Source of the DNA: Myxococcales bacterium
GTDB taxonomy: Bacteria > Myxococcota_A > Polyangia > Polyangiales > Houyiibacteriaceae
Length of the DNA: 36,574 nucleotides
Direction of reading: 5' to 3'
Assembly (NCBI GenBank): GCA_019637115.1
Contig: JAHBWH010000075.1
Span: forward strand, 1-36,574
The position numbers and the translations under genes are program-made. The notes beneath the pieces were generated by a model that saw only the letters and a list, made by a program, of their open reading frames with translations, was not told the DNA's origin and ran no database searches. Positions 19,101-31,791 of the stretch are shown in pieces; positions within the stretch are counted from its first letter, which is position 1, and every line of letters starts with the position of its first letter.

Positions 19101-19387
19101 TGATCGCCGGCGGGACGCGCCGGTTCCGCCCCATCTTGCTCACCTCGCTCACGACCTTCTTCGGGCTGATGCCCATGATCCTCGAGCCCTCGGTTCAGGC
19201 ACGCTTCCTCGTCCCGATGGCGATCTCGCTCGGCTTCGGCATCGTCTTCGCGACCGTCATCCTCGTCTTCCTCGTCCCCTCCGCGTACCTCATCATCGAG
19301 GACCTCGTCCGCGGCACGAAGCGCGCGGCGGCCGCTTTCTCCCCGGCGGGCACGCCGCGCCCGAGCCCCGCGTCGCCGGCAGAGTGA
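16097..19387 (+). CDS. RND-family efflux permease (AcrB-like)
   Basis: 1,096 residues, the inner-membrane proton-driven pump of the tripartite system. The first membrane span (about 42-65) is followed by FPEVEIDTVIVNVPYPGASP, the usual start of the first periplasmic domain. A cluster of spans about 370-560 contains GMVVDDAIVVGE with the proton-relay pair Asp432-Asp433. A second periplasmic domain and a last membrane cluster (GIVALSGVVVNDSLVLID) follow. A 30-residue cytoplasmic N-terminal extension rich in Asp/Ser is longer than in AcrB. Substrate is unknown; drugs, lipids or secondary metabolites are possible. Its gene ends just before a good intrinsic terminator. Confidence 0.93.
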   Translation: MSAPSDEPSADADDGVPAESLAGSAATPPDLHRGILAWFARNTVAANIIMLVLLVGGSVLAITGVKQEVFPEVEIDTVIVNVPYPGASPSEVESGVALAIEEAVQGLDGVKEVRTTATEGFAVVAVELLLGADTDRALNDVKSAVDRITSFPQDIERPVVALATNRRQVVSLILHGDVEDAERVLHDLAEQVRFDLLEKPEITYVEIAGTRPLEIAVEVPQSELRRHGLTLAEVAGAVRAASIEVPAGSLKTRSGDILLRTTERRERGSEYADITLRSRADGGRIRLGDIANIEDGFREEDRAARFLGNRAVSVDVFRVGDEGPIQVAGAVRRYLDEELSERLPPGVEAVIWNDTSELYSDRIDLLSRNAQIGLILVLIILGLFLEPRLAFWVTLGIPISFAGAMLFLPSAEVSINMISLFAFIVVLGMVVDDAIVVGESVHHKRSQGLSRMDAAVAGVKEVAVPVLFSITTTCVAFAPLLFVPGVAGKFFRNIPLVVISVLIVSLIESLVVLPAHLSHRMPWALRMLTFPLQALSKLRAERGLLFFIDRLYRPALQLALRWRYLTFAVAIAIGLGTCALPASGRLQFSFMPKVEGDTIMANLRMPVGTPVAETERLEARMVSAAREILAESGGDEILRGLYSQVGASMGAGGGPVAGSGSDGAHLASAMVYLVQMDQREITAAQFAERWRERIGEIAGAETLTFSYSIGASPGSPVDIRLSHPDPSTLEAAAERLAQELRSYPGLRDIDSGVSPGKEQLDVTLRPEGRARGLTESELARQLRDAFFGAEAVRQQRGREELRVYVRRPLSERSSMADIEQLVVRTPDGGEMPLAQAADVRLGRAYTTIRRTDGRRIVSVTADVVAGVGNANEILATARQRELPQLLADTPGLTYSMGGEQKEQAESLKALATGQLFALFVMYGLLAIVFRSYAQPLVVMLGAIPFGVTGAFLGHLMMGFDLSMISIMGIVALSGVVVNDSLVLIDAINRFRREEGMSAFEAVIAGGTRRFRPILLTSLTTFFGLMPMILEPSVQARFLVPMAISLGFGIVFATVILVFLVPSAYLIIEDLVRGTKRAAAAFSPAGTPRPSPASPAE

Positions 19388-19390
19388 GCG

Positions 19391-19416
19391 GTGACCCGAA
19401 AGGGGTCGCAATTTTT
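19391..19416 (+). terminator. Intrinsic terminator of the efflux operon
   Basis: GTGACCC (19391-19397) pairs with GGGTCGC (19403-19409), including one wobble pair, around a GAAAG loop. The run TTTTT at 19412-19416 follows. It starts 3 bases after the permease stop codon, so it should end the tetR-to-permease transcript and separate it from the kinase gene. Confidence 0.7.
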
Positions 19417-19440
19417 CGCCACCGCTGCTATCTTACACTC

Positions 19441-20856
19441 GTGACGGAAGCACCTCGCAGCCTGCTCACGGTGAAGGAGGTCGCCCGCGGGGGCCTCGGC
19501 ATCGTCGAGCTGGCGCTCCGACGCGAGGGCCGCTTCGAGCGGCTCTGCGCCGTGAAGCGGCCACATCCGCACCTGCTGCACAGCCCCGACGCCGTCGAGA
19601 TGTTCCTCGAAGAGGGCCGGCTCGCAGGCTTGCTCCAACACCCCCACGTCGTCCCCGTCCTGGACGTCGGCAAGGACGAGCGCGGCCCCTTCCTCTTGAT
19701 GGACTTCATCGAGGGCGTCTCGCTGGCCGAGCTGGTCAAATCCGCCCAACGCGAGCGCGGCGCGCTCCCCGTCTCGGTCGTGGTGCAGATCGCCCGTCAG
19801 GCCGCGGAGGGGCTCCGCGCCGCCCACGAGCTCGTCGGCGTCGATGGAGCCGTCACGCCGCTCATCCACCGCGACATCTCCCCGCAGAACCTGCTGGTCG
19901 GCTACGACGGCGCGGTGCGCGTGCTCGACTTCGGGATCGCGAAGCTGCTGCGCAGCGACGCGCCCGAGACGCGGACCGGCCTCAAGGGCAAATGTGGCTA
20001 CATGGCGCCCGAGCAGCTCCGCTTCGAGCCGGTCGACCCGCGAACGGATCTCTTTGCGCTCGGCGTCGTGCTCTTCGAGGCGCTGACGACGACGCGCCTC
20101 TACCGGGGCGATCTCGAGACGGCGGCGCGGCTGATCCTGCACGGGCCGCCGCCGGATGTCCGCGACCACCGCCCCAACGTCGACCCGACGCTCGCGCGGC
20201 TCGTCGGCGACATGCTCGCGAAGCACCGCGACGATCGGGTGCCGAGCGCGAAGGCCGTGATCGACCGGCTGCGCGAGATCGAGCGGCGGCTCCGGCTCTC
20301 TCCGGACTGGATCGACCTCGGGGCGTTCATGGAGGGCAGCTTCGCGACGCGACGGGACGACGAGCGCGCCTCGCGCGCGTGGGACGTCGCGCGGGCGGAG
20401 CGGCGAGACGTGACGGGCTCGACAGGAGCGACAGGACCGACCGGACCGACCCTCGATCCCGTCCGCGAGCGCGCGAGCCTCCGCGCCCCGCTCGCGCTCG
20501 GCGCCGCCCTCGCCATCGTCCTCGGGGTCGTCGGCGGGCTCGCGTGGAGTCCGGACGACGCGCCGCCCGCGAGCGAAGCGACCCCACCTCGTCCGACCGC
20601 GAGCGACGCGACGCCCCCCCGTCCGACCGCGAGCGACGCGACGCCCCGCGAGCCGGGGGCCGACCAGCCGAGGAGCGCCGCGACGACCCCGACGATGCCC
20701 GCGAGCGCCCTCCCCTCCCCCTCCGCGGCCGCGCCCCCGCCCGAATCCGACGAGGACGAGGCGATCACGCTCACGCCCGCGCGACGGGAGCCACGACGCA
20801 CACGGAGCACGCGGAGCTCGACGCGGATGGGCCTCGCGGGGGAGTTCTGGGATTGA
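19441..20856 (+). CDS. Membrane-anchored Hanks-type Ser/Thr protein kinase
   Basis: 471 residues. The kinase domain (about 8-285) has a glycine-rich loop (ARGGLGIV, 15-22), the ATP-anchoring Lys39 (CAVKR), catalytic HRD at 143-145 (HRDISPQN), DFG at 163-165 and a YMAPEQ motif, all intact, so it should be active. A single membrane span lies near 350-368, placing the C-terminal Pro/Ser/Thr-rich tail outside. Just before the span sits a short collagen-like run (GSTGATGPTGPT). After it comes a 10-residue repeat, ASDATPPRPT. GTG at 19441 is chosen: the in-frame GTG at 19384 would translate the terminator, with AT-rich third positions. Its end overlaps the TPR/PEGA gene, a likely partner. Confidence 0.88.
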   Translation: MTEAPRSLLTVKEVARGGLGIVELALRREGRFERLCAVKRPHPHLLHSPDAVEMFLEEGRLAGLLQHPHVVPVLDVGKDERGPFLLMDFIEGVSLAELVKSAQRERGALPVSVVVQIARQAAEGLRAAHELVGVDGAVTPLIHRDISPQNLLVGYDGAVRVLDFGIAKLLRSDAPETRTGLKGKCGYMAPEQLRFEPVDPRTDLFALGVVLFEALTTTRLYRGDLETAARLILHGPPPDVRDHRPNVDPTLARLVGDMLAKHRDDRVPSAKAVIDRLREIERRLRLSPDWIDLGAFMEGSFATRRDDERASRAWDVARAERRDVTGSTGATGPTGPTLDPVRERASLRAPLALGAALAIVLGVVGGLAWSPDDAPPASEATPPRPTASDATPPRPTASDATPREPGADQPRSAATTPTMPASALPSPSAAAPPPESDEDEAITLTPARREPRRTRSTRSSTRMGLAGEFWD

Positions 20857-21668
20857 GGGCCGCTCGCGCACATCACCTCCTCGTCTCGGGCGCGCTCGCG
20901 CTCGGCGTCGTCCTGACGGTCTCCAGCGCGGACGCTCAGGAGCGGTGCCGCGCCTGCGAGCTCGACGAGGCCGCGCGGGAGGCCACGGCCAGCGGGCGCC
21001 TCGCGGACGCCGATCGGATGCTCACGGAATCCCTGGAGCTGCGCCCCCGCGCGGCGACGCTCTACAACCTGGCCGTCGTCCGCCAGAACCGCGGGCGCCT
21101 CGTGGACGCGAGGCTGCTGCTCGAGCGGCTCCTCTCGGGCGAGCTTGGGCGCATCCCCGCGGCCCGCCGCGCGGAGGTCACGGAGCGCCTCGCCGACGTC
21201 CTCGCGGGCATCGGCGCGGTCGTCTTGGCGCTCGAGGGTCTCGACGACGACGCGGAGCGCCCTCGCGTGCGCCTCGACGGTCGGCCCATGGGCGTGGCGG
21301 GGCCCGACGGTACGCTGCGGCTGAGCGTCGATCCGGGGTCCCACGTGCTGACCGTCTACCTCGAGGACGGTCGCGTGCTCGAGCGGACGTTCGACGTCGA
21401 GCCGGGCGCGACGCGGGAGGTCCGCGTCAACGTCCTCGCGCGCGCCGTGAGGCCAGCCCCCACCCCGCTCGTCGCCATCGAGCCCCCCGTGACGCCCCCG
21501 GTGTCGGTGGAGGAGCGCACCCCGCGGCGCCGGCGCATCCTGCTCGCCGTGGCCGGCGTCGTCGCGGTGGGCGGGGCCATCGCCCTCGCGGTGGGGCTCT
21601 CTCGGGGCGCCGAGGCGGGCCCCCCCGACACCTACCTCGGCACGCTGCACGCCCTCGCCGCGTTCTGA
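20853..21668 (+). CDS. Extracytoplasmic TPR/PEGA-domain protein
   Basis: 271 residues if translation begins at TTG 20853, which overlaps the kinase stop (TTGA) and has GGGGAG about 8 bases upstream. This start gives a proper signal peptide (HHLLVSGALALGVVLTVSS, cleavage near ADAQ). A TPR-like helical part (about 35-95, with DRMLTESLELRPRAATLYN) precedes a PEGA-like domain (about 125-195, with VRLDGRPMGVAG and VDPGSHVLTVYLEDG). A C-terminal hydrophobic span (ILLAVAGVVAVGGAIALAV) follows. PEGA proteins are surface-associated and often sit beside kinases in myxobacteria. It probably senses or relays at the envelope together with the kinase. Confidence 0.8.
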   Translation: MRAARAHHLLVSGALALGVVLTVSSADAQERCRACELDEAAREATASGRLADADRMLTESLELRPRAATLYNLAVVRQNRGRLVDARLLLERLLSGELGRIPAARRAEVTERLADVLAGIGAVVLALEGLDDDAERPRVRLDGRPMGVAGPDGTLRLSVDPGSHVLTVYLEDGRVLERTFDVEPGATREVRVNVLARAVRPAPTPLVAIEPPVTPPVSVEERTPRRRRILLAVAGVVAVGGAIALAVGLSRGAEAGPPDTYLGTLHALAAF

Positions 21669-21700
21669 GCCCGGCGTCCCGGCAGCTCCTTCCGTAGCCA

Positions 21701-21751
21701 TTGCACGGAGCAGGCGGTTGCACGAAGCGGGCGGTTGCACGGAGCGGGCCT
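21701..21751. repeat. 17-bp tandem repeat, three units
   Basis: Three consecutive 17-bp units beginning TTGCACG(G/A)AGC (21701-21717, 21718-21734, 21735-21751), differing at a few positions. They lie in the 222-bp gap between the TPR/PEGA gene and the regulator at 21891. No hairpin or operator was obvious. Confidence 0.8.
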
Positions 21752-21890
21752 CGGTCCGTGAAGCGGATACGACCCTTCGTGCCGGTCGAAGCGTCCCGCG
21801 GGGCGCGGTCCGACTTGGTCGCCACGCAGAAGCGAAGCCACCGGACGCGCTTTTTGCGCAACTGGCGGCACGAGGGGTCGAAGAGCGGCC

Positions 21891-22742
21891 ATGCCCCTCG
21901 CCGCCCCCGCTCGCCGCCCCACCATCCTCTACGTCGACGCCCACGACGCCGCGCGCGCGTGCCTATGGCAAGCGCTCCCCGCCGCTCGCGTGATCGCCGT
22001 GAAGTCGCTCGAGACCGCCTCGCGCGTCGTCTTCGGCGGCCCGCCCGACGAGCCCTCCGGGGTCGATCTGGTCCTGCTCCGCGCCGCCACCTGCGGAGAC
22101 CGCGCCTTCCGGTGGCCTCGACAGCTCGCGTCACACGGCTTCCAAGGGACCTGCGCGCTGGTCCTCGACGCGGACGGCGGGCTCGCGGAGCGGGCGAAGG
22201 CGATGGACGCCGAGGCCTTCCCCTTCCCGCTCCTCGGCTTCGCGCTGCGCGGCTTCGTCTACGGTCGCCTCGGCCTGCCCCACGACGGCGCCACGAACGG
22301 CGGCTACGACCCCGCGCAGCCCGCCGAGGAGCGACGCGGCTCCTCGCAGCGACCACGCGTCGACGCCGACGACGAAGACGTGTTGCTGCTCGCCCTGGGC
22401 CATCGCGCCCTCACGCCCGAGGACGTCCGCCTCGTCGCGTTCGCGTCGCGGACGACGACGCAGCGAGAGCTCGCCGATCTGCTCGGGCTCGCGCACGAGT
22501 CCGTGAAGAGCGCCGCCAAGCGGGTGCAGCTCAAGACCGGCCAGAACATCCACGCGTTCGCGCACGGGCTCGCCCGCGAGGCGCGGCGACGCGCGCGCGA
22601 CGAGGTCGCGCGCCTCCTCGCGCGCGCGGGCTCGGCGGCGGAGGCGTCGGGTGAGCGCGCCGTGCCCACCGTCGGGACGCCAAGGACGTCGACGCGCCGT
22701 CCGCGGACCGAGCGAAGGAGGGAGCCTGCGGCGACTCGATGA
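21891..22742 (+). CDS. Response-regulator-like protein with degenerate receiver and LuxR-like HTH
   Basis: 283 residues. The first 125 residues follow the receiver fold: TILYVDAHD gives the strand-1 acidic pair (Asp16, Asp19), and GVDLVLLRA is the third strand. The Asp normally phosphorylated there is Arg64, so classical phospho-activation is unlikely. A linker leads to a helix-turn-helix (about 180-225, TQRELADLLGLAHESVKSAAKRVQ) of NarL/LuxR type, followed by an Arg-rich tail. It probably binds DNA and is controlled by something other than phosphorylation, but the target is unknown. Its stop codon lies in the first unit of the 13-bp array at 22732. It converges with the ATPase-TPR gene. Confidence 0.7.
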   Translation: MPLAAPARRPTILYVDAHDAARACLWQALPAARVIAVKSLETASRVVFGGPPDEPSGVDLVLLRAATCGDRAFRWPRQLASHGFQGTCALVLDADGGLAERAKAMDAEAFPFPLLGFALRGFVYGRLGLPHDGATNGGYDPAQPAEERRGSSQRPRVDADDEDVLLLALGHRALTPEDVRLVAFASRTTTQRELADLLGLAHESVKSAAKRVQLKTGQNIHAFAHGLAREARRRARDEVARLLARAGSAAEASGERAVPTVGTPRTSTRRPRTERRREPAATR

Positions 22743-22887
22743 CGCGACTCGATGACACGACTCGATGACACGACTCGATGACACGACTCGATGACACGAC
22801 TCGGTGACACGACTCGATGACACGACTCGATGACACGACTCGATGACACGACTCGATCACGCGACGCGATGACGCGACTCAATGACG
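22732..22887. repeat. 13-bp tandem array, twelve units, spanning two convergent stop codons
   Basis: Twelve back-to-back copies of CGACTCGATGACA or close variants, with no spacers. Variant units are at 22797 (GGTGACA), 22849 (GATCACG), 22862 (CGACGCG) and 22875 (CTCAATG). A decayed thirteenth unit follows. The first unit supplies the TGA of the regulator gene (22740-22742). The twelfth, through a single G-to-A change, supplies the TGA of the minus-strand ATPase gene (22881-22879). Because 13 is not a multiple of 3, unit gain or loss would shift any reading frame that entered the array. Confidence 0.95.
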
Positions 22888-25506
22888 CGGCTCGACACCC
22901 GGCTGCGTGGACTCGCCCTCGAGGGGAGGCAGCTCGTAGCTCTCGCTCTCGCGCAGCCGCGACCGGATGTCGTCGGCGCGCCCGCGGAGCTGCATCGCCT
23001 CGTGCGCGACCACCGGGTCGGTCCGATCGTCGGCGCTCTCGAGGAACTTCGCGTAGGTCTCGAGGCTCTGCGAGAGCTCGATCTGGTTGCCGAGCTCCTC
23101 GAAGATGCTGATCGATCGGCGGAACGCTTCGCGGGCGCGGGCGTGGTCGTCGCCGCCCCACCCCGCCGCGGCGGTGATCTCGCCGAGCGTCCGGAAGGCG
23201 ACGCCGAGGAAGGCCTTCCCGCGCGCCTGCTCGAAGAGCGCGATCGAGCGCCCGATGTAGTCGCGGGCCGTGACGAAGTCGTTGACGAGGTAGTGCGCCT
23301 TGGCGAGGCCGCGGAGGATCTCGCCCTCCAGGATGCGATCGCCGAGCGTGCTCGAGATGTCCTCGGCCTCCTTCAAGGTCGCGATCGCGTCCTCGGGTCG
23401 CTCGAGGCGGTACTGCGACTCACCGAGGTTCGTGAGCACGACGGCCTGGCGCATCCGGTCGCCGACCTGCCGCGCGACCTCGAGCGCCTCGCGGAAGAGC
23501 TCCGCCGCGCGCGCGTGGTCGCCGTCGTCCTGGTGGATCGTCCCGAGGTTGTTGAGCGTCTGTGCGATCCCGGGGCGGTCGCCGATCTCCTGCCGCAGGT
23601 AGAGCGCCTCCTCGAAGGCCCGGCGGGCCTGCTCGAAGCGCCCCGAGTCCTGGTGGACGACGCCGAGGTTGTTCAGGCTGAGCGCGATCGATCGCCGATC
23701 ACCCAGCTCTCGGCGCAGATCGAGCGAGCGCGAGAAGAACCGCTCCGCGGTCTCGTAGCTGCCGCGCAGCCAGTGGACCTTGCCGATGTCGTCGATGGAC
23801 GACGCGACGCCGCGATGATCGTCGCTCGCCACGAAGAGCGCCTGGCCCGTGCCCAGGTGGCGCATCGCCTCGTCGAGGTGGCCGATGCTCCGGTAGAGCC
23901 GCCCGATGCGGTTGTGCGCGACGCCGCCCTTCGCCTTGAGGTCGAGCCGAAAGGCGCACTCGAGCATCTCTCGGAAAGCCGTGAGCGCCTCTTCGTTGCG
24001 CCCGGCGAGCTGGAGCACGTCGCCGTATCCGTGGAGCGCGTCGAGCCGGCGCCGCGTCTCGCCCTCGCCGAGCAGCTCGAGGCCCTGCTCGAAGTCCTCG
24101 GCGGCCTTGTGGTTCGCGTAGCGCGCGCGCGCGCGATCGCCGGCGTCGAGGTAGAGGAGCGCCGCACGCTGCTCGAGGCCGCCCTCCTCGTAATGATGCG
24201 CGAGCATCTCGAGCTGCTCTTCGCCGCGCGTGGGCAGCTTGAGGTCCAGCCACTCGGCGACGACCCGGTGATAGCGGCGCATCTGCGTGCGGTTCGTCAG
24301 CCGGTGCAGCATCTCGCGCTCGAGGTTGTGCTTGAACGCGAACTCGGGCTCGCCCGGCACGGTGCTGTCCGGCATGGGCAGCACGTAGTCACGCTCGGCG
24401 AGGCTCGCGAGCATGTCCTCGTAGTGCGCGACGACGCTCTCGTGACCTCCCCACAGCTCGGGCGCCTTCGCCTCGATGCGCGAGAGCGCGACGAGGGCCC
24501 CGAGCCAGAACACGCCCCCCATCGTCGACGCGCGCTCCAGCAGCTCGCGCTCGGCGGGCGCGAGCGAGCTGATGCGCGCGCTGATCGCCTGCTCCACGGT
24601 GAGCGGAAGCTGCGCGTCGTCGAGGCGGTCGAGATCGACCTCCCACGCGCCCGCCTCGCCGACGCGGAGCACGCCCGCGTCGAAGTACGTGCGCACCATC
24701 TGCTCGAGCAGGTACGGGCTGCCCGCCGCGACGTCGACCGCGGTGTCGACCAGCTCGTTGGGGACGTCGCCCGCCGGCTCGAGCAGCTTGAGGAGCAGGC
24801 TCGCGGCGTCGTCGCTCGTGAGGGGCGCGAGCTCCATCCGCGTGGAGCCCTTCGCCCAGTCGACCCGGCGCGCGAGCAGCTCGGGGCGCGCGGCCACGAG
24901 GATGAGCACGGACGTGTCCCGCAGCGAGCCGGCGAGGTACTCGACGAGCTCGAGCGCGTCGTCCTGGGCGTGGTGGAGATCGTCGAAGGCGATGACGATC
25001 GGGTGGTCCTGCCCGTCGAGCTCGATGGCCCGGCGGAGCACCGCCTGGCTGACGCGCCGCAGCTCCCGCGGGTCGTCCTCGAGCGCCTTCGTGAAGGGGG
25101 AGTCCTCGAAGTCGAGGTCGAGGTACGCGCCGAGGAAGAAGAGGAACTCGTCGACGCGATCGTTGCCGATCACCGCCGTCACCTCGTCGCGGAGGCGCTG
25201 CTTCGCCTCGGCGACCGGGGTGTTCTCCGGGATGCGGAAGCGCTGGCGGAGCACGCGCTGCACGAGCCCGTGCGCGGGGGCGTTCGCGCGGGCCTGCGCG
25301 CGGTAGACGCGCGTTCGTCGCTCGCGCTCGCGGAGCCGGACGAGCAGCTCGTCCAGCAGGCGAGTCTTGCCGATCCCGGGGCTGCCGATGAGGGTGACGA
25401 GCTGGGGCTCGCGCGCCGACATCGCGCGCGCGAGGGCGTCTTCGAGCTCGCGGAGCTCGGGGCCGCGGCCGACGAGGGGCACCGCAGGGAGGTGAATCTC
25501 GGACAT
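22879..25506 (-). CDS. AAA/STAND-type ATPase with TPR array
   Basis: 875 residues. The N-terminal half is an AAA_16/NB-ARC-like ATPase: VGRGPELRELEDAL entry motif, Walker A GSPGIGKT at 41-48, Walker B IVIAFDD ending at Asp175-Asp176, then a helical winged region. From about residue 400 to 860 it carries a run of tetratricopeptide repeats (for example LNNLGVVHQDSGRFEQARRA and its near repeat LNNLGTIHQDDGDHARAAEL). Such STAND-like proteins sense ligands or scaffold complexes. Here there is no kinase or DNA-binding domain attached, so the output must be another protein. The ATG start at 25506 gives the conserved entry motif. The last residues are encoded by the tandem array. Confidence 0.88.
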   Translation of the reverse strand: MSEIHLPAVPLVGRGPELRELEDALARAMSAREPQLVTLIGSPGIGKTRLLDELLVRLRERERRTRVYRAQARANAPAHGLVQRVLRQRFRIPENTPVAEAKQRLRDEVTAVIGNDRVDEFLFFLGAYLDLDFEDSPFTKALEDDPRELRRVSQAVLRRAIELDGQDHPIVIAFDDLHHAQDDALELVEYLAGSLRDTSVLILVAARPELLARRVDWAKGSTRMELAPLTSDDAASLLLKLLEPAGDVPNELVDTAVDVAAGSPYLLEQMVRTYFDAGVLRVGEAGAWEVDLDRLDDAQLPLTVEQAISARISSLAPAERELLERASTMGGVFWLGALVALSRIEAKAPELWGGHESVVAHYEDMLASLAERDYVLPMPDSTVPGEPEFAFKHNLEREMLHRLTNRTQMRRYHRVVAEWLDLKLPTRGEEQLEMLAHHYEEGGLEQRAALLYLDAGDRARARYANHKAAEDFEQGLELLGEGETRRRLDALHGYGDVLQLAGRNEEALTAFREMLECAFRLDLKAKGGVAHNRIGRLYRSIGHLDEAMRHLGTGQALFVASDDHRGVASSIDDIGKVHWLRGSYETAERFFSRSLDLRRELGDRRSIALSLNNLGVVHQDSGRFEQARRAFEEALYLRQEIGDRPGIAQTLNNLGTIHQDDGDHARAAELFREALEVARQVGDRMRQAVVLTNLGESQYRLERPEDAIATLKEAEDISSTLGDRILEGEILRGLAKAHYLVNDFVTARDYIGRSIALFEQARGKAFLGVAFRTLGEITAAAGWGGDDHARAREAFRRSISIFEELGNQIELSQSLETYAKFLESADDRTDPVVAHEAMQLRGRADDIRSRLRESESYELPPLEGESTQPGVEPRH

Positions 25507-25633: not shown

Positions 25634-26863
25634 TCAGTCGGCGAGGGCGAGCGCCAGATCGACGAGGAGCGCGTGCGCGGCCAGCCCGTCACGCTCCGAG
25701 ATCGGGGCCCCGCCCTGCGCTCGCCGCAACGCGGACCGGAACGCGAGCCAGCGAGGCGCCGGCACCCCCAGCCAGGCGGCGAGCATCGCTGGCTCGGGCG
25801 TCGTCACGCCGGCCCGCTGCGCGGCGCGCGCGAGCAGCTCGTCGATGAGGACCTCACACTCGCCGAGGGCCTCCGCGATCGCGCCCGTCGCGAGGTGCCC
25901 CTCGAGGGTCCGCACCCGCAACGCGTGCTCGGGACGAAAGAGCGGCGCGAAGCTGAGCCCGACGCCCCTGCGCGTCGTCGGAGGCTCCGACGCGAACCCG
26001 GAGGGCAAGCTGGAGGGAAGGCTCGAAGGCAACGTGGAGGGCTCGGGCACCACCGCGCTCTCGAGGTGCGCCCGAAAGGCCGCCTCGCCGAGCTGCGCGT
26101 CGAAGGCCCGCCCAGGACCGAGCGCCTCGAGCCGCGGAGAGGTGGCGATCTCGGCGCCCGGGTCCGGACGCGAAGGCGCCCCAGACGACGGCGCCCCGAG
26201 GGACGACTCCGCGCCCGAAGGCGCACCGAACGACTCGGAGCGCGAAGGGGCCCGCAGCGACTCCGGGCCGCCGAAGGTGCCGCGGGCTTCGAGATCCTCG
26301 ATGACGAGCTCCACGAGCCGATCGAGCCCGGCCACCACGCCGTCCCCACGGGTCGCGACGCTCCCGAAGCGCGGGCGCCCGCTCGGGTTCAAGCGAACGT
26401 CGAGCTCGTCGGGCATCAGCACCCGCGGCAGATCCTGCTTGTTGTAGAGGAGGACGAGCGGGACGTCCGCGAGATCGCGACCCTGCTCGTGGAAGTTCGC
26501 CGCGAGGTTCTCGAGGCTCTCGAGGTTCGCGTCGAGGCGCTCTCGCTGCGAGTCGGCGACGAAGACGACGCCGTCCGCCCCCGTCAGCACGAGCTTGCGG
26601 GTCGCGTTGAAGTAGACCTGCCCCGGCACGGTGAAGAGCTGCAGGCGGACGTGGTGGCCGCGCACCTGCGGCCCACGCAGAGGCAAGAAGTCGAAGTAGA
26701 GCGTCCGGTCGACCGGCGTCGCGAGCGAGACGAGCTGTCCCCGAGTCTCCGCGGGCGCGATCGAGTGCAGGTGCTGCAGGCAGGTCGTCTTCCCGCCGAG
26801 CCCAGGCCCGTAGTAGACGAGCTTGACGAGCAGCTCGCGCGTCAGCGGGTTGACCTGGGCCAC
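25634..26863 (-). CDS. Long MglA-like small GTPase with C-terminal extension
   Basis: 409 residues. The first 190 residues match MglA closely: P-loop GPGLGGKTT (19-27, with Gly where MglA has Cys), TVPGQV switch-II region that lacks the usual Asp, FVADSQRERLDANLESLENL, and the NKQD guanine-specificity motif. Residues about 195-300 are a low-complexity Ser/Pro/Ala linker with SLPS repeats, and the last 100 residues form a predicted helical domain with no match I know. MglA itself is only about 195 residues, so the extension is a clear difference. Start is GTG (26863), 21 bp after the lipoprotein gene, with a 13-nt palindrome between. A role in polarity or membrane-associated assembly is inferred. 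Confidence 0.85.
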   Translation of the reverse strand: MAQVNPLTRELLVKLVYYGPGLGGKTTCLQHLHSIAPAETRGQLVSLATPVDRTLYFDFLPLRGPQVRGHHVRLQLFTVPGQVYFNATRKLVLTGADGVVFVADSQRERLDANLESLENLAANFHEQGRDLADVPLVLLYNKQDLPRVLMPDELDVRLNPSGRPRFGSVATRGDGVVAGLDRLVELVIEDLEARGTFGGPESLRAPSRSESFGAPSGAESSLGAPSSGAPSRPDPGAEIATSPRLEALGPGRAFDAQLGEAAFRAHLESAVVPEPSTLPSSLPSSLPSGFASEPPTTRRGVGLSFAPLFRPEHALRVRTLEGHLATGAIAEALGECEVLIDELLARAAQRAGVTTPEPAMLAAWLGVPAPRWLAFRSALRRAQGGAPISERDGLAAHALLVDLALALAD

Positions 26864-27853: not shown

Positions 27854-28336
27854 ATGACGAACCCGCAGATGGTGATGTACGAGGAGGAGTTCAACCAGAT
27901 CCAGACGATCGTCGATCGGCTGGTTCGGGAAGCGAACGCCCAGGTCGTGTTCATCATCGACAAGAACGGTCAGCTCATCGCCGCGGCGGGCGAGTCCGAG
28001 CAAATCGACACCACCAGCTTGGCCTCGCTCACGGCCGGCAACATCGCGGCCACCGGCGGCATCGCGAAGCTGCTGCGCGAGAACGAGTTCACGACGCAGT
28101 TCCACGAGGGCGAGCGCGCGAACATCCACATCCAGCTCGTGGGGAACCGGGTCATCCTGGTGGTCATCTTCGACAACAAGACCAGCCTCGGGCTAGTCCG
28201 CCTGCGCGTGAAGAAGGCCAGCGAGGAGCTCAGCCAGATCTTCGAGGCGCTGCTCGCGAAGGTCTCCGACCCGAACCGCGAGGCGCCATTCGCCGAGATA
28301 ACCGACGACGACATCGACAACCTCTTCAACGACTGA
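27854..28336 (+). CDS. mglB: MglB, Roadblock/LC7 GTPase-activating protein for MglA
   Basis: 160 residues, a Roadblock/LC7 protein. In Myxococcus xanthus, MglB is the GAP of MglA and marks the lagging cell pole. Seen here: VMYEEEFNQIQTI at the start, DKNGQLIAAAGESEQIDTTS, SLASLTAGNIAATGGIAKL, FHEGERANIHIQ, FDNKTSLGLVRLRVKKAS and the acidic C-terminal FAEITDDDIDNLF, all corresponding to the known MglB sequence. Length equals that of the M. xanthus protein within one residue. GGAGGAG lies 4 bases before the ATG, an unusually strong ribosome site here. mglA follows after 15 bp, so this is the standard mglBA operon. Confidence 0.97.
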   Translation: MTNPQMVMYEEEFNQIQTIVDRLVREANAQVVFIIDKNGQLIAAAGESEQIDTTSLASLTAGNIAATGGIAKLLRENEFTTQFHEGERANIHIQLVGNRVILVVIFDNKTSLGLVRLRVKKASEELSQIFEALLAKVSDPNREAPFAEITDDDIDNLFND

Positions 28337-30978: not shown

Positions 30979-31110
30979 GCGCGCCGCCTGGGGCCTCGGT
31001 CCCGACGAGCCGGATGCGTGCGGCGCGCCGCCTCGGGCCTCGGTCCCGACGAGCCGGATGCGTGCGGCGCGCCGCCTCGGGCCTCGGTCCCGACGAGCCG
31101 GATGCGTGCG
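30979..31110. repeat. 44-bp tandem repeat, three units
   Basis: Units at 30979-31022, 31023-31066 and 31067-31110; units 2 and 3 are identical and unit 1 differs at one base. Each contains the short palindrome TCGGTCCCGA. They lie in the 389-bp divergent gap between the GH113-like and glutaredoxin genes, beginning 35 bp from the former's ATG, so they may include its promoter region. The rest of the gap (31111-31333) holds the hairpin noted next and otherwise nothing recognised. Confidence 0.95.
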
Positions 31111-31136
31111 GCGCTCACGCCCTTCGTCGTGCGCTT

Positions 31137-31333: not shown

Positions 31334-31591
31334 ATGGCCGAAGTACGCATCTACACGACCCCTTGGTGCCCCTATTGCCGCCTCGCGCTCGGGCTGCTGC
31401 GCGACAAGGGCGTCGCCTTCGAGGAGATCGACGTCAGCGGCGACGAGGCGAAGCGCGCGTGGCTGAGAGACGCGACCGGCCAGACCACCGTCCCGCAGGT
31501 CTTCATCGACGGCCGCTCGGTCGGAGGCTACACGGACATCGCCGCGCTCGACCGAAGGGGCGAGCTCGACGAGCTCCTCTTCCGCGCGTGA
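31334..31591 (+). CDS. grxC: Glutaredoxin (dithiol, CPYC type)
   Basis: 85 residues, full length for a class I glutaredoxin. The active site CPYC is at 12-15, TVPQVFI supplies the cis-Pro, and VGGYTDI is the glutathione-binding GG motif. It reduces protein disulfides and glutathionylated proteins in the cytoplasm using glutathione. It is monocistronic, with repeats on both sides. The symbol is given by similarity to GrxC. Confidence 0.93.
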   Translation: MAEVRIYTTPWCPYCRLALGLLRDKGVAFEEIDVSGDEAKRAWLRDATGQTTVPQVFIDGRSVGGYTDIAALDRRGELDELLFRA

Positions 31592-31619
31592 CGCGAGGAG
31601 GAGCGCGCGAGACGCGAGC

Positions 31620-31688
31620 AGTAGTGCGCGTGAACGCGAGCAGTAGTAGTGCGCGTGAACGCGAGCAGTAGTGCGCGTGAACGCGAGC
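31620..31688. repeat. 22-bp tandem repeat, three units
   Basis: AGTAGTGCGCGTGAACGCGAGC at 31620-31641 and 31667-31688, with a middle copy (31642-31666) enlarged by one extra AGT. Decayed relatives lie on both sides (for example GCGTCACGCGAGGAG near 31700). The array occupies most of the 200-bp convergent gap between glutaredoxin and the HupE/UreJ-like gene. Confidence 0.9.
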
Positions 31689-31791
31689 AGGAGTCCGCGT
31701 CACGCGAGGAGCGCGCGCCCCTCGCGGAGCCGCTCGCCTCTGGCGCCCGCTCGCTCCACGACGTCCTGCCGCGCTCACTCCGCGACGCCGC

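Follow-up and report, generated by a model that had tools for sequence, protein, structure and literature searches.

GTAG-tagged REP elements often contribute, with their termini, a TAG stop codon to flanking ORFs (PMC3733652), MIRUs located at start codons fit the reading frames on either side (PMC12548453) and a survey across the tree of life found that short tandem repeats are not generally enriched in bacteria (PMC12699852). Closest to the locus described here are the intergenic minisatellites, or VNTR loci, of bacteria, with which it shares short head-to-tail units, an intergenic position, occurrence in one lineage only and a homogeneous core with degenerate edges. The repeats covered by the tree-of-life survey reportedly have units shorter than the 13 bp found here. 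In contrast to minisatellite and VNTR loci, the present array reaches into both flanking coding ends, and the comparison draws on a single genome of the species. As with REP elements, an extragenic repeat downstream of genes supplies the stop of a neighbouring ORF (PMC3733652). However, REPs are dispersed palindromes present in many copies, whereas this array is a set of non-palindromic direct repeats whose unit pair occurs at one locus, with only mismatched pairing between units and near-empty centroid structures. The array also resembles MIRUs in abutting coding ends and fitting the flanking frames with little harm (PMC12548453), but MIRUs are portrayed as mobile elements that insert at start codons, while the array lies between convergent 3' ends and is found once in the genome rather than dispersed.

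We analysed a window of 36,574 nucleotides, which is one whole contig (C408) of a Myxococcales draft genome of 434 contigs. At 22732-22895, TRF identified a tandem array (assigned to no strand) with a period of 13 bp, 12.6 copies of the consensus CGACTCGATGACA, 92% matches and a score of 265. Thirty Markov-1 shuffles of the window gave TRF scores of at most 73; the array is therefore not a product of chance, and its head-to-tail short units are those of a minisatellite. This confirms that it is real and lies where a preliminary description of the same DNA had placed it; that description had the 13-bp period right, although it spelled the unit with only 12 bases. Elsewhere in the window, TRF also reported arrays at 30979-31114 (44 bp, 3.1 copies, 98% matches) and 31584-31708 (22 bp, 5.7 copies).

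Units 2-5 and 7-9 match the consensus exactly and form the only runs of identical units (52 and 39 bp). Unit 6 carries one change and unit 1 ends in G; units 2-9 are nearly identical and units 10-13 more degenerate. Since the identical runs span only 52 and 39 bp, gross short-read collapse is not obvious, and the 12.6 copies are to be read as the figure of a draft assembly. An assembly artefact, affecting either the array itself or its copy number, might be suspected in a genome of this many contigs, given that the array is about as long as one short read. However, the order of units is anchored by the distinct variants 1, 6, 10, 11 and 12, and the same assembly holds many other arrays with different units, which leaves an artefact scarcely credible. 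Variation in copy number among strains, as the preliminary description had proposed, is plausible.

The array occupies the gap between two convergent genes and contains the stop codons of both, as had been reported. On the + strand, a gene for a putative DNA-binding regulator of 283 amino acids with an HTH-like C-terminal half (21891-22742) ends at a TGA in unit 1 (22740-22742). On the - strand, a gene for an AAA ATPase-TPR (STAND-like) protein of 875 amino acids with Pfam AAA_16 and TPR matches (22879-25506) ends at a TGA in unit 12 (22879-22881; TCA on the + strand). The degenerate 13th half-unit (22888-22895) falls within the ATPase-TPR coding sequence. Near this gene lie genes for a small-GTPase (Arf/Ras-like) protein with a long C-terminal extension (25634-26863) and for a roadblock/LC7 protein (27854-28336).

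The two stops appear to differ in history. Clear orthologues of the ATPase-TPR protein are found across the order, a same-genus orthologue being 82% identical, and in the near ones the stop falls no more than a few codons from the same PG motif: the protein of the same-genus genome G001 ends in ...STQPGVQAPRA and that of the window in ...STQPGVEPRH, each followed by the stop. This array was absent behind all orthologues inspected. DNA similarity to G001 starts exactly where the array finishes, at 22895, and on that G001 contig the ATPase-TPR gene alone is shared. Since array-less orthologues end at nearly the same codon, the ATPase-TPR stop is most likely older than the array. Unit 12 reads CGACTCAATGACG and differs from the consensus by G7A and A13G, of which G7A alone makes the stop. 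This single-base change had been taken as the origin of the stop, an interpretation at odds with the end points of the array-less orthologues; we infer that the change probably ran in the opposite direction, with unit 12 keeping the old stop and the inner copies having lost it.

For the regulator, no Pfam family scored above the cut-off, and a single-sequence structure model was too poor to use (mean pLDDT 38.9). No orthologue was found across the order, in which the sole full-length relative is encoded by the own genome itself, a paralogue (G000:C425) with ~45% identity; both proteins show weak HTH-like matches. In the alignment, the paralogue stops exactly at ...PRT, while the window protein goes on with a 17-codon tail, STRRPRTERRREPAATR (22689-22739), whose codon usage resembles that of non-coding DNA. 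The tail scores -0.487 per codon against 0.319 for the regulator body, below the lowest-scoring 17-codon body window tested (-0.176), and scores this low are found at only 1.3% of 1090 gene ends. The one paralogue and the codon usage suggest that an original stop of the regulator, 17 codons upstream, has probably been lost and that the gene now runs to the earliest in-frame TGA that the array offers. The earlier claim that the array supplies the stop of this gene is thus upheld for the TGA in unit 1, with the qualification that an earlier stop has probably been lost. The regulator and its paralogue each lie near a Ser/Thr protein kinase gene (window 19384-20856; L040 453-1400). The kinase gene facing the paralogue has its 3' end and stop within a repeat of 1.9 copies of a 63-bp unit (L048 10882-11000, corresponding to about L040 1355-1473).

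A search with the unit dimer, covering 183 genomes of the order with one genome per species, matched the own genome and none of the other 182, and gave no match in the scanned genome collection; within the own genome, this array is the sole locus of the unit pair. Arrays of other units are common there. We surveyed 1.97 Mb of the genome (L044-L101 and L122-L161; 71.7% G+C in the first 1.18 Mb) for intergenic arrays with a period of ≤40 and ≥5 copies, taking gene ends from a simple codon-score gene caller made for this analysis. Among the 105 arrays recovered, the periods included 6 (27 arrays), 12 (20), 13 (19, with differing units), 14 (7) and 18 (8), and none of 10 or 11. A preference for period 13 over 12 and 14 was not significant (p = 0.27). 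Some of the 13-mers resemble two hexamers plus one base. One 13-bp array in 37 copies (GACCGAGACCGAT; L153 5394-5864) has a called gene ending in its middle.

The surveyed arrays tend to lie behind genes: they are within 60 bp of 58 of the 92 genes that read toward an array, compared with 19 of the 105 genes whose start faces one, and of 61 located between co-oriented genes, 43 sit closer to the upstream gene, at its 3' end, than to the downstream one (p = 0.002). Nine contain the stop of a neighbouring gene, and the window array is the only one in the sample to hold the stops of two neighbours. Stop codons were not enriched in the intergenic arrays of the survey. Arrays of the same kind numbered six in G001 and one each in G006 and G009 (samples of ~0.1 Mb each), from which we suggest that richness in such arrays may characterise the genus, the samples from relatives being small.

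The reading frames through the window array are asymmetric. The + strand unit carries a TGA and, as 13 is not a multiple of three, any + frame is stopped within three units (39 bp); on the - strand the consensus is free of stops. Were the TGA in unit 1 lost, the regulator would therefore gain only 12 residues, the TGA recurring in every + frame every 39 bp, while loss of the stop in unit 12 would add 115 residues to the ATPase-TPR protein. The two stops sit in the outermost units, and changes in the number of interior units therefore leave both proteins unchanged, contrary to the suggestion in the preliminary description that slippage alters their tails. More generally, one stop codon within the unit of a non-triplet repeat suffices to close every frame of its strand, and here the consensus leaves all frames of the other strand open, so that such an array can set the end of a protein by accident. 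The same property, together with the apparent capture of the + strand gene by the array, would fit a selected stop trap that guards against read-through into the antisense of the ATPase-TPR gene. However, all frames are stopped by any unit that carries a TGA and has a non-triplet length, and this one leaves the - strand unguarded, at the cost of those 115 residues should the ATPase-TPR stop be lost. Across the survey, arrays with all-frame stops were not enriched where genes read into them within 60 bp (5 seen, 6.1 expected from shuffled units). Selection as a stop trap is, on this evidence, most improbable.

The location between convergent genes, and a long imperfect hairpin that can be drawn on both strands, would also be consistent with a bidirectional transcription barrier or terminator, as the preliminary description had raised. 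Against this, no terminator-like or promoter-like site was found in 21600-23600, and the array lacks the GC-rich stem followed by a T run of an intrinsic terminator. Folding of the array RNA is weak and ridden with mismatches, its energies being slightly below those of shuffles (z = -2.4 and -2.9) with nearly empty centroid structures, and an Rfam search of the array matched no family. Nor are arrays of the own-genome survey enriched in convergent gaps, which hold 12 of 92 (Fisher p = 0.46). A barrier is accordingly very unlikely. Binding of a protein to iteron-like sites, for example by the neighbouring regulator, would fit the regularity of the 13-bp direct repeats and their place immediately after a gene whose product is HTH-like in its C-terminal region. 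Yet this array is the only place in the genome where the unit occurs, 13-bp arrays elsewhere are built of different units and the regulator paralogue at C425 lacks a neighbouring array of this type. Such binding sites seem to us a most remote prospect.

We consider it very probable that the array is an ordinary, locally born intergenic minisatellite, neutral and generated by slippage, which by chance captured a stop-loss. Its origin would be the duplication of a 13-mer from the 3' terminus of the ATPase-TPR gene, the copies being extended through slippage or unequal recombination into the intergenic space that follows. Units 10-13 would represent the old, degenerate gene-proximal edge and units 2-9 a recently homogenised core. 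The ATPase-TPR gene keeps its stop near the conserved end point. Following or accompanying the birth of the minisatellite, the facing regulator would have lost its stop 17 codons upstream and run on to the first in-frame TGA, in unit 1. Most likely, the array has no dedicated function and remains in place since DNA of this sort is tolerated immediately downstream of stop codons. Several points weigh against this account: the stop-loss is putative, being drawn from one paralogue and no orthologue; the gene ends of the survey are those of a simple caller; the fold energies are slightly below those of shuffles; and holding the stops of both neighbours sets the window array apart from all other sampled arrays.

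By itself, the array is a curiosity. A broader proposal, which we put forward tentatively and consider unlikely, is that in this high-GC lineage minisatellites are born often behind genes and form a passive reservoir of new stops, in which genes that lose their own stop are caught again within a few units. If this were true, the birth of repeats would shape the C-termini of proteins over evolution. The arrays clustered behind gene ends across the genome offer a usable system for studying both the birth of intergenic repeats and change at protein C-termini.
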